Virus record (IMG/VR): IMGVR_UViG_3300017963_000011
Location: 41,135-105,134 of that record
DNA from: a virus
DNA length: 64,000 bases
Direction: 5' to 3' (one strand)
The position numbers were made by a program, and so were the translations under genes. Every line of letters starts with the position of its first letter. Position 1 is the first letter of the stretch. The notes beneath the pieces are model-generated. The model was given only the letters and a program-made list of their open reading frames with translations, did not search any database and had not been told where the DNA came from. Shown here piece by piece: positions 54,609 to 62,626 of the stretch.

Positions 54609-54773
54609 TCATCCTACAAGCGAGACGAGCACGAGCACGAGCATGACGAGCCCGAGCACGGCCGAGCCGGCCCGCTTCGCCAGCCGCAAGCGGCGGGCGT
54701 CTCGCTCGGCGAGAATGGCGCGGGCGGCGCGCCGCGTTTCCTTGCGAATCTTCTTCGCCACGATACCTCGCAT
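54609..54773 (-). CDS. Small basic membrane protein (54 residues), sigma54 unit 1
   Basis: ATG 54773 follows GAAAGGGGAACACAC, the leader shared by most genes in this region. Residues 1-34 are strongly basic and 37-53 form a membrane helix (AVLGLVMLVLVLVSLVG). It is the first gene of unit 1. Confidence 0.65.
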   Translation of the reverse strand: MRGIVAKKIRKETRRAARAILAERDARRLRLAKRAGSAVLGLVMLVLVLVSLVG

Positions 54774-54833
54774 GTGTGTTCCCCTTTCGGGAGTCTCGGC
54801 CGGCCGCTCGGCTCGGCGGCTCGGGCCGTCTAA

Positions 54834-54855
54834 CCTATGTCGCCGAGAATGGCAA
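54834..54855 (-). promoter_or_regulatory. T7-like phage promoter, copy 7 (degenerate)
   Basis: Minus-strand TTGCCATTCTCGGC followed by GACATAGG, 60 bases before ATG 54773. It directly follows a sigma54-type box, so two promoter types overlap here. Confidence 0.45.
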
Positions 54856-54870
54856 GCAAGGGCCGTGCCA
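54855..54870 (-). promoter_or_regulatory. Sigma54-type promoter of unit 1
   Basis: Minus-strand TGGCACGGCCCTTGCT has GG and GC separated by exactly 10 bases and fits the -24/-12 consensus TGGCAC-N5-TTGCW. The gene starts about 83 bases after the -12 box. Confidence 0.75.
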
Positions 54871-54939
54871 GCCGGGCCGCATTCTCGGCGCCGAGAATGA
54901 GCCGGCGCTTCGTATCATGACGCCCGATTCATTAAATTT

Positions 54940-55062
54940 TTTTGCCCCTGTATAGTACGCGTGCATGCGTCTATATATAGGGGCCAAATTGCTTCCTTTT
55001 CTTCGGGCGCACGGGCGCGCGCCCGTGCGGGCGCGTGCGTATAGTATATATAGACATGTATC
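54940..55062. other. GC-rich gene-free stretch with TATA and purine block
   Basis: Alternating GC runs with TATATATA boxes and CCTTTTCTTCGGGCG lie between two units, left of repeat B. No open frame with the local leader motif is present. Confidence 0.6.
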
Positions 55063-55173
55063 GTCTAGCAGATTCGCCGTCTAACGGCCGATCGCCTTTC
55101 ATGCGGCCCGATACTCGGGCGGCCGGCCGATCGGCCGAATCCGGCCCGATTCCGGGCGTCTCGTGGCGAATCT
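55063..55173 (-). repeat. Long repeat element, copy B
   Basis: The same element as copy A in the opposite orientation, from GTCTAGCAGATTCGCC to CTCGTGGCGAATCT. A TAGCGCTA palindrome follows about 48 bases to its right (55221). Confidence 0.8.
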
Positions 55174-55252
55174 GGCGCGCCGCTCGGGCGCCCGAGCGGG
55201 CCGCCGGCCGGCGGCGGGCGTAGCGCTACCACGAGACGGCGCGCGCGCGTAT

Positions 55253-55283
55253 AAGAAAAGCCGCCGGCCGATCGGCCGGCGGC
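55253..55283 (-). terminator. Terminator of sigma54 unit 2
   Basis: The stem GCCGCCGGCCGA/TCGGCCGGCGGC is followed on the minus strand by TTTTCTTAT. Confidence 0.8.
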
Positions 55284-55302
55284 CCGAGTCTCGGCGCCGA
55301 GA

Positions 55303-55710
55303 CTACATGCGGCGGCGGCGCCGGCTCTCGTGCTCTCGCCATTCGCGCCGCATGCGGGCGTCTCGGCGGCGGGCGTCTCGATCGCGCCGCTTGTAAAGCC
55401 TACGTATGGCGTGCTCGGCGCGCTTATACGTCTCGCTCTCGGGCTCGAATTGCCCGAGTAGATTCCACAGTGGCGAATCGTCACACGTCATGCCTTCGCC
55501 GTGCTCGTTTACGGCTTGCGCTACTCGATTCAGCGCTTCGGCCGCGCCTTTTGCCATGTCTCGGGCCGTGCGGCGCTCTCGCTCGGCGCCGGGCCGGCCG
55601 GCGGCTTCGGCGAAGATTCGCATGTCGTCTTGTCTCGTGGCGTTTTTGTACATGACGCCCGCCATGAGACGCAACATGAAGGCGACGACGTTTCGCGTGT
55701 CTTTGTCCAT
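55303..55710 (-). CDS. Unknown protein, sigma54 unit 2
   Basis: The protein has 135 residues. It starts 2 bases after the previous stop. The helical N-terminal part (NVVAFMLRLMAGVMYKN) may be membrane-associated, and the C-terminus is Arg-rich (EWREHESRRRRRM). Its stop lies at a palindrome copy, which adjoins the terminator. Confidence 0.6.
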   Translation of the reverse strand: MDKDTRNVVAFMLRLMAGVMYKNATRQDDMRIFAEAAGRPGAERERRTARDMAKGAAEALNRVAQAVNEHGEGMTCDDSPLWNLLGQFEPESETYKRAEHAIRRLYKRRDRDARRRDARMRREWREHESRRRRRM

Positions 55711-55712
55711 GT

Positions 55713-55997
55713 CTAGTCTACTCGCTTCCCGTGCTCGTCAATCTCGTATGCGTCAAGATACATGGTCACACTGGCTTCGGCGGGCTCGGCGACGGCGGCG
55801 CGGCGCTGGCGCCAGCCGTCCATGCGCGGGCCGAGCGAGCGGCCCGCCGAGACGAGCCCGAGAGCGAGCACGGCGCCGAGCACGAGCCCGGCGGCCCATG
55901 CGAAGGCGCGGCGGCGGCGGCGCCGGCGGCCGGCGGCCCGTGCGCGAATGATAGACCGTGCCATGTGGCTTCGGCCCTTAATCGTTTCGTCTTTCAC
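55713..55997 (-). CDS. Membrane protein, sigma54 unit 2
   Basis: The protein has 94 residues from GTG 55997 behind GAAAGGGGAACAC; ATG 55964 is the alternative. An Arg-rich stretch precedes one membrane segment (FAWAAGLVLGAVLALGLV), followed by an outside domain with YLDAYEIDEHGK. This is a single-pass membrane protein. Confidence 0.6.
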   Translation of the reverse strand: MKDETIKGRSHMARSIIRARAAGRRRRRRRAFAWAAGLVLGAVLALGLVSAGRSLGPRMDGWRQRRAAVAEPAEASVTMYLDAYEIDEHGKRVD

Positions 55998-56050
55998 GTG
56001 TTCCCCTTTCGGCCCGGCGCCGCTCGGCCGGCGGCGCACGCATTCGACTA

Positions 56051-56066
56051 TGCAAGGGCCGTGCCA
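56051..56066 (-). promoter_or_regulatory. Sigma54-type promoter of unit 2
   Basis: Minus-strand TGGCACGGCCCTTGCA is a perfect -24/-12 match, 54 bases before GTG 55997. Confidence 0.85.
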
Positions 56067-56164
56067 TTCTCGGCCATGACATGTCAGCCGTGCCCGAGCA
56101 CGGCGCCGAGAGCGAGCCGGCCCATGTTCTTGGCGCCGAGAATGGCGGGCGCCAGCCGGGCCGA

Positions 56165-61267: not shown

Positions 61268-61390
61268 AAGCGGCGCGCGCACGCGTCTATATAGAGACAT
61301 GGCGCACATGCGCGCACGCCCGCCCGCGCACGCGAAGAAAAGGAAGGGGAAAAGCCCCCTATAGACGCGCACGGGCACGCGCGCACATGA

Positions 61391-61418
61391 GAAAAGCCGC
61401 CGGGCCGGCCCGGCGGCT
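61391..61418 (-). terminator. Terminator of sigma54 unit 7
   Basis: AGCCGCCGGGCC/GGCCCGGCGGCT is followed on the minus strand by TTTCTCAT. Confidence 0.75.
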
Positions 61419-61432
61419 CTCGTGCGGCTCTC

Positions 61433-61624
61433 CTATCCTACGAGCAAGAGAGAGCCGTCCATGAACGCGCTAACCTTTTCGCCCGGCTTCATGTTGCCCG
61501 CATAATCGTACATTTCGCCAGCCGAGACGGTAAACCATGCATAGTCGTCTCGATTCATAATCACCTTGACTTGAATCGCGCTGGCTCTGTTTACCGCGTT
61601 CATAAGCTCGTGTCGGTCCATCAT
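61433..61624 (-). CDS. Small unknown protein, sigma54 unit 7
   Basis: The protein has 63 residues from ATG 61624 behind AAAGGGGCCGAAA. Strand-rich with VKVIMNRDDYAWFTVSAGEM and a hydrophobic end (GSLLLVG). No family is recognised. Confidence 0.6.
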   Translation of the reverse strand: MMDRHELMNAVNRASAIQVKVIMNRDDYAWFTVSAGEMYDYAGNMKPGEKVSAFMDGSLLLVG

Positions 61625-61675
61625 TTTCGGCCCCTTTCGTCTTGCGGGCGGCTTGCCCGGCTCGCCATTCTTCAA

Positions 61676-61692
61676 TGCAAAGCGTGTGCCAA
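61676..61692 (-). promoter_or_regulatory. Sigma54-type promoter of unit 7
   Basis: Minus-strand TTGGCACACGCTTTGCA keeps GG-N10-GC, with the -12 box TTTGCA. The gene starts about 52 bases downstream. Confidence 0.78.
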
Positions 61693-61809
61693 GTCTCGCG
61701 CCCGCTGTACACTCTACCACGCCCGCGCCCGTATTCCCCTATAGACGCACGGCGCGAAGAGCAAGGAAGCGAAAAAAGCCGCCCGAGCCGCCGGCCGCCG
61801 CCCGGCGCT

Positions 61810-62015
61810 ACTGACAGCCATGCCAGTCTCGGCGCCGAGAATGACCACGAATCCGGGCCGGCCGGCTGCGCTCAAATCCGCCATGGGCGCCGTTTTGCGG
61901 CCCATACTGACATTTGTGTCACTAGCCGACATTGAGAGCACCGAATCGGCCGAGAGCCGCGCCAGCAAAGCAATACAAGCCGGCCGCCGGCTCGTGCTAC
62001 TGACAAAAATGTCAG
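61810..62015. promoter_or_regulatory. Shared upstream operator cluster 3
   Basis: Contains ACTGACAGCCATGCCAGT (61810-61827), CTGACATTTGTGTCAC (61907-61922) and CTGACAAAAATGTCAG (62000-62015), between the divergent promoters at 61676 and 62139. Confidence 0.7.
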
Positions 62016-62138
62016 TCCCTATATACGTATAAGCGCACGCCCGCATGCGCGCGCCCGTGCGAAGAAAAGGAAGGGATTCGGCCCTATAGACGCGCACGCG
62101 CCCGCATGCGCAGTGTAGCGCTACCACGAGCCGAAACA

Positions 62139-62154
62139 TGGCACGGCGCTTGCA
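62139..62154 (+). promoter_or_regulatory. Sigma54-type promoter of unit 8
   Basis: TGGCACGGCGCTTGCA matches -24/-12. The gene starts 27 bases downstream. A TAGCGCTA palindrome lies just upstream (62116). Confidence 0.85.
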
Positions 62155-62180
62155 CTAAGGCAAGCGAAAGGGGAAACGAA

Positions 62181-62291
62181 ATGAGCAAGCGAGAACGAAA
62201 CGCCCGCCGCCTCGACTGGCTTATGCAATCGTTCATGGTCGCCGTTATGACGGCCGCCATTCTGGCCTATAACGGTACGATCGTATTCTAG
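62181..62291 (+). CDS. 36-residue membrane peptide, sigma54 unit 8
   Basis: ATG 62181 behind GAAAGGGGAAACG. A basic start (KRERNARRLD) precedes one membrane segment (FMVAVMTAAILAYNGTIVF). Small, but supported by the shared leader. Confidence 0.6.
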   Translation: MSKRERNARRLDWLMQSFMVAVMTAAILAYNGTIVF

Positions 62292-62307
62292 GAAAGGGGA
62301 AAAGACA

Positions 62308-62574
62308 ATGACGCACGAGGAATTCATGAAGCGCCGCGCCGAGCTTTTCGAGGAAGCGAAGCGCATTCTTCGCACGCTGGCGCCCGAGACTCGCATGGCG
62401 AGTGAAACCGAAAAGAGCACGGCCGAGCTTTTCGAAGCCGCGCCGCTCTCGTGCCCGTACTGCGCAAGCAATAACACGAGCACATGCGATTTTGGCGGCC
62501 CGTTTTGCCTCGATTGTGGCGCCACGTTTGACGGCGCCGGCTTCGTCAACGGCGAATGGACGGGCCGCCAGTAA
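62308..62574 (+). CDS. Zinc-ribbon protein, sigma54 unit 8
   Basis: The protein has 88 residues behind AAAGGGGAAAAG. A helical N-terminus (EEFMKRRAELFEEAKRIL) precedes a zinc ribbon with CPYC and CLDC. It may act on nucleic acid. Confidence 0.65.
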   Translation: MTHEEFMKRRAELFEEAKRILRTLAPETRMASETEKSTAELFEAAPLSCPYCASNNTSTCDFGGPFCLDCGATFDGAGFVNGEWTGRQ

Positions 62575-62592
62575 ATACGCCCGCAAGCATGC

Positions 62593-62626
62593 AGCCGGCC
62601 GCCGAAAGGCGGCCGGCTCTCTTTAT
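62593..62626 (+). terminator. Terminator of sigma54 unit 8
   Basis: AGCCGGCCGCC/GGCGGCCGGCT with loop GAAA is followed by CTCTTTAT. Confidence 0.85.

Follow-up and report, generated by a model that had tools for sequence, protein, structure and literature searches.

Eight transcription units (U1–U8, Table 1) in a GC-rich island of an uncultivated virus most probably use −24/−12 promoters of the host sigma54 RNA polymerase, as judged from the DNA sequence. The island (~10 kb, at ~53.5–63.5 kb; GC content 58–69% versus ~47–60% elsewhere) lies in the window, i.e., the 64,000-nucleotide stretch formed by bases 41135–105134 of a 105,134-bp virus record (IMGVR_UViG_3300017963_000011); positions are those of the window unless given as contig positions. 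The predicted promoter class is well supported by consensus, orientation, start-codon distance, upstream palindromes, the lack of a sigma70 excess and a further site before the large terminase gene (terL). In many bacteria, flagella, pili, nitrogen use and envelope stress are under the control of sigma54, which is inactive without an ATP-driven activator; accessory genes and a structural operon placed under it would have their timing set by a host signal.

Sigma54-type sites of the island and of terL

The sequence-only reading had reported eight sites with an invariant GG and GC ten bases apart, one before every gene or gene pair, and had suggested scanning the genome with a −24/−12 weight matrix. 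When the whole contig was scanned with such a table, nine sites scored 14.4–15.3, namely all eight of the island and one at contig 17855 (next best: 13.7); GG and GC were invariant in the eight and in the terL site. The exact sequence TGGCACGGSSCTTGCA was confirmed in five of the eight, as claimed; with up to 3 mismatches it gave 12 matches in the window versus 2.2 expected from shuffles. At a score of ≥14.4, the island held 8 sites versus a mean of 0.04–0.17 and a maximum of 2 in Markov models (order 2–6) of the island; an equal density in random sequence, one of the outcomes named beforehand as refuting, was not seen. At a score of ≥14, 9 matches were found in the contig with a spacer of 4, and 2, 0, 0 and 3 with spacers of 2, 3, 5 and 6, respectively; the extended consensus TGGCACG-N4-TTGCW exceeded chance.

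Each of the eight sites faces its own downstream gene or genes, with start codons 27–213 nt away (~52 nt from the U7 site to the ATG at 61624), and the sites lie 0.3 to several kb apart. Sigma70-type promoters showed no excess in the island (1 versus 2.3 expected). Every unit is closed by a strong GC-rich terminator, in agreement with the sequence-only reading; those of U6 and U7 were read directly in the sequence. That reading was corrected in two respects: the forward sites at 56435 and 59368 had been placed one base off, the other six positions standing as given, and U1 extends to ~54144, past the former limit of 54609.

The ninth site, TGGCACGACGCTTGCT (contig 17855), is located 37 nt upstream of terL, the gene that heads the structural operon; at a score of 15, the remaining 95 kb are expected to hold 0.03–0.12 such sites. 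The same polymerase would probably serve the structural operon through it.

Upstream palindromes and the proposed mode of activation

Upstream palindromes are expected for bacterial enhancer-binding proteins in a layout of this kind. Three promoter pairs are divergent (U2/U3, U4/U5 and U7/U8). The palindrome TGACA-N4-TGYCA occurs 10 times in the island, 9 times between divergent pairs, and is absent from the other 95 kb; its stricter form TGACA-N4-TGTCA has 4 copies per 105 kb, every one within the three divergent sigma54 intergenic regions. The copies are common to six promoters and lie ~80–270 bp from the promoters that they would serve. The region upstream of U6 carries three copies of a different palindrome, so that at least two types, TGACA-N4-TGYCA and ATCGGAAY-N5-RTTCCGAT, are found upstream of the sites; FlrA-type sites (GTCA-N6-TGAC) were sought in the contig and none was present. 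The distances suit sigma54 enhancers; these are placed ~100 bp or more upstream in the Desulfovibrio vulgaris sigma54 regulome (PMC4641369), which likewise has bipartite GG/GC promoters, with the elements tGGcacg and tTGCt; here, in contrast, the sites are carried by a phage, serve eight short units and terL, and are accompanied by no activator gene on the contig.

We infer that RpoN would bind these sites: each would hold the sigma54 holoenzyme of the host in a closed complex, and a host enhancer-binding ATPase, bound at the palindromes upstream, would open it, each divergent pair having its palindromes in common. No RpoN gene (PF04552) was found on the contig, which may be incomplete, and a phage-encoded sigma54 was rejected on this ground. 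A phage-encoded activator was likewise rejected: the sole PF00158 match, 28 Walker-type residues in an AAA protein, was below the cut-off, and a search for a GAFTGA motif gave none, with the same reservation as to completeness. With neither protein encoded there, it is simplest to assume that sigma54 and its activator are those of the host, and the earlier proposal that both come from the host fits in so far as the contig is complete. Of the sequence-only reading, the promoter class was supported; a tie of the whole region to a host stress or nutrient signal is no more than a possibility, at least two different upstream palindromes being present.

Sites in other viruses and alternative explanations

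An exact 16-mer search of IMG/VR, whose contigs are redundant and unverified and may in part be fragments, led to contigs with many sites. In 28 contigs, each chosen for holding one site, TGGCACG-N4-TTGC was counted ~105 times versus 2 for the reversed pattern. Aligned sites from other virus contigs read yTGGCAC(G/A)nnnnTTGC(A/T), which speaks for sigma54. Perfect convergent pairs (1–31 nt apart) were present in 57 IMG/VR stretches and perfect tandem pairs in at least 120 (reversed tandem control: 0); prokaryote genomes gave convergent pairs in 2 stretches per 257 Gb searched. In the fetched loci, 91 clusters of at least 4 strong sites fell into at least 61 groups (L022, L066, L071, L152, L200, L236 and ~55 further groups, in unrelated contigs); the clusters hold up to 16 sites in mixed orientations with a median spacing of 28 nt. 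The middle four bases of the arms of convergent pairs agree at chance (1.06 of 4); the reading as a palindrome or hairpin was therefore dropped, and the pairs fit independent sigma54 sites. An activator above the cut-off was found in 0 of 27 site-bearing contigs and RpoN in 0 of 36; three annotated phage regions related to array contigs contained no arrays.

So dense a packing is hardly compatible with a promoter set, and one reading of the arrays is a sponge for sigma54 holoenzyme; terminase genes or DnaA boxes are close to some of them, and other roles are therefore possible. It is conceivable, and proposed here only tentatively, that uncultivated phages use sigma54 in two ways, some, this phage among them, with promoter sets that share enhancers and also drive the packaging operon, and many others with compact sponge arrays that would disarm the host regulon. 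A literature search, with subscription papers mostly outside its reach, did not bring up any phage described as having a sigma54 promoter set or array, in line with the earlier claim that none had been described; the phage is nevertheless not unique, such sites being common in uncultivated viruses. From this survey, sigma54 sites appear to recur among uncultivated phages as a feature that has so far gone undescribed, convergent pairs being almost absent from prokaryote genomes. Dedicated promoter classes for a phage gene set are known in phiEco32-like phages such as 7-11 (PMC8948821) and in the late genes of T4 (PMC2988020); there the sigma factor is phage-encoded, whereas the class found here belongs to an alternative sigma factor of the host, one that needs an ATPase activator, with no RpoN gene on the contig. 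Dense arrays of one binding site have a counterpart in synthetic transcription factor decoys (PMC7826281), but those of IMG/VR are natural, viral and made for a sigma factor, and the window's own sites form no array.

Several points weigh against sigma54 promoters in the island. The scores come from a hand-set weight table built on consensus values, and the loose consensus search behind the alignment of sites from other virus contigs favours that same consensus. The U6 and U7 sites depart from consensus. The control regions of U2/U3 and U4/U5 are repeats, 78–86% identical, and with these regions duplicated the five exact sites do not have five independent origins. The U1 and terL sites lack the palindromes of the divergent pairs, and in 20 other virus contigs no such palindrome lay near a sigma54 site. 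Directly after the terL site, a sigma70-type match (TTGACA-N17-TATTAT) is present, and terL may therefore be served by either or both; were transcription to begin 12 nt past the sigma54 GC, the leader would be 26 nt long and contain an AGGG ribosome site, whereas with a sigma70 start terL would have next to no leader.

The sites might instead serve a DNA-binding protein of the phage as operators, their likeness to the sigma54 consensus being fortuitous. Other dispersed sites (GTAGCGCTAC, TCTCGGCGCCGAGA) abound, so that the phage probably encodes regulators that recognize specific sites; however, every one of the 12 conserved positions agrees with the sigma54 consensus, unrelated viruses have the same two-part site with an unconstrained middle, and each gene unit has a single site at the distance of a promoter, which makes operators very improbable. 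It is very improbable that the island sites are dispersed decoys titrating sigma54, although the dense arrays in many unrelated virus contigs, in both orientations ~28 nt apart and without matching gene starts, would suit this role. Sites closer than the polymerase footprint and orientations independent of genes, by which a decoy array would be recognized, were found in those contigs and not in the island, where the wide spacing is coupled with one site per unit, facing the gene and accompanied by leader, ribosome site, terminator and palindromes.

The jump in GC content from ~56% to 64–69% and island genes without phage relatives would be accounted for if the contig were a chimera in which the island stems from a GC-rich bacterium and carries its ordinary sigma54 operons. 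Phage-wide palindromes, however, occur in the island (six and seven copies) as well as outside it, a repeated element of the phage has a copy at 54835 and terL has a sigma54 site of its own; a chimera is accordingly held to be the least probable of the alternatives, and −24/−12 promoters of a phage region are preferred.

Gene content, coordinates and other repeated elements

The uncultivated source is, by its gene content, a tailed phage, because genes for the large terminase, tape measure and head protease are encoded on one arm of the contig and those for DNA polymerase, DnaB-type helicase, RecA, Toprim and methylase elsewhere on it. Terminase identity to cultured phages is only ~30%, and no close relatives of terL or of the 479-aa U3 protein were found in IMG/VR; a search for relatives of the latter protein likewise gave none. 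The cargo of the units consists of short proteins with hydrophobic stretches, Cys-rich zinc-ribbon-like proteins and the one 479-aa protein; for the 94-aa ORF of U2, the GTG at 55989 is the likely start.

Table 1. Window coordinates of sites, genes, terminators and enhancer-like palindromes of the island
Feature	Positions	Strand	Sequence or description
U1 site	54855–54870	−	TGGCACGGCCCTTGCT
U1 genes	54144–54773	−	54-aa protein with hydrophobic C-terminal stretch (54609–54773), then small ORFs
U1 terminator	54095–54117	−	
U2 site	56051–56066	−	TGGCACGGCCCTTGCA
U2 genes	55303–55997	−	94-aa ORF (55713–55997 as called); 135-aa protein (55303–55710)
U2 terminator	55258–55285	−	
U3 site	56435–56450	+	TGGCACGGCCCTTGCA
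U3 gene	56663–58102	+	479-aa Lys/Ala-rich protein
U3 terminator	58111–58137	+	
U4 site	59033–59048	−	TGGCACGGCGCTTGCA
U4 gene	58581–59003	−	140-aa protein with CxxC pairs, zinc-ribbon-like
U4 terminator	58540–58565	−	
U5 site	59368–59383	+	TGGCACGGCCCTTGCA
U5 gene	59590–59916	+	108-aa Cys-containing protein
U5 terminator	59958–59983	+	
U6 site	60708–60723	−	TGGCACGGGAATCGCA; weakest of the eight
U6 gene	60330–60656	−	108-aa protein
U6 terminator	60292–60317	−	read from sequence
U7 site	61676–61691	−	TGGCACACGCTTTGCA
U7 gene	61433–61624	−	63-aa protein
U7 terminator	61395–61418	−	read from sequence
U8 site	62139–62154	+	TGGCACGGCGCTTGCA
U8 genes	62181–62574	+	36-aa protein with hydrophobic stretch (62181–62291); 88-aa zinc-ribbon-like protein (62308–62574)
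U8 terminator	62593–62618	+	
Palindrome, U2/U3	56168–56181		TGACA-GCCA-TGCCA
Palindrome, U2/U3	56249–56262		TGACA-AAAA-TGTCA
Palindrome, U2/U3	56270–56283		TGACA-TGGA-TGCCA
Palindrome, U4/U5	59135–59148		TGGCA-TGGC-TGTCA
Palindrome, U4/U5	59216–59229		TGACA-TTTT-TGTCA
Palindrome, U4/U5	59237–59250		TGACA-TGGA-TGCCA
Palindrome, U7/U8	61812–61825		TGACA-GCCA-TGCCA
Palindrome, U7/U8	61908–61921		TGACA-TTTG-TGTCA
Palindrome, U7/U8	62001–62014		TGACA-AAAA-TGTCA
Palindrome of different type, upstream of U6	60826–60848		AATCGGAAT-N5-ATTCCGATT
Palindrome, upstream of U6	60895–60937		(A/G)ATCGGAAY-N5-RTTCCGAT, two overlapping copies

The palindrome GTAGCGCTAC has ~35 copies contig-wide (e.g., 2997, 14484, 30000, 58159 and 62116; 0.2 expected), many of them intergenic, and is similar to operators of the LacI type or to dispersed stoperator-like sites. 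The palindrome TCTCGGCGCCGAGA (22 copies, 28916–63132) is confined to the right part of the contig and is often found just upstream of minus-strand start codons. A promoter-like element, TTGCCATTCTCGGCNCTATAGGGTGA, stands at 44797, 48559, 52159, 52318, 52751, 53279 and 54835 (−); it has CATTCTCGGC in common with the palindrome TCTCGGCGCCGAGA and resembles a phage RNA polymerase promoter. The element (TTGCCATTCTCGGCNCTATAGG/TTGCCATTCTCGGCNCTATAGGGTGA) was not found in IMG/VR, and a search for a single-subunit RNA polymerase (PF00940) to go with TTGCCATTCTCGGCNCTATAGG gave no match, but none in the control genomes either, so that the negative is no evidence of absence.

An intergenic module of ~105 bp is present in five copies (53866–53990, 55058–55182, 58212–58340, 60087–60212 and 61148–61274; mean column identity 81%) and ends in AGATTCGCC/GGCGAATCT. 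Repeats of TTCCTTTTCTTCG (53698, 54037, 54993, 56349, 58487, 59304, 60023, 61038, 61333, 62060 and 62715) lie between units, on both strands, with AT-rich TATATAGAC boxes nearby. A 187-aa protein (30980–31543, −) with a weak match to sigma-70 region 4 is possibly a phage sigma factor, and tRNA-like stretches at 29240–29540, beside the single tRNA-Thr called by ARAGORN, are perhaps degenerate tRNAs.

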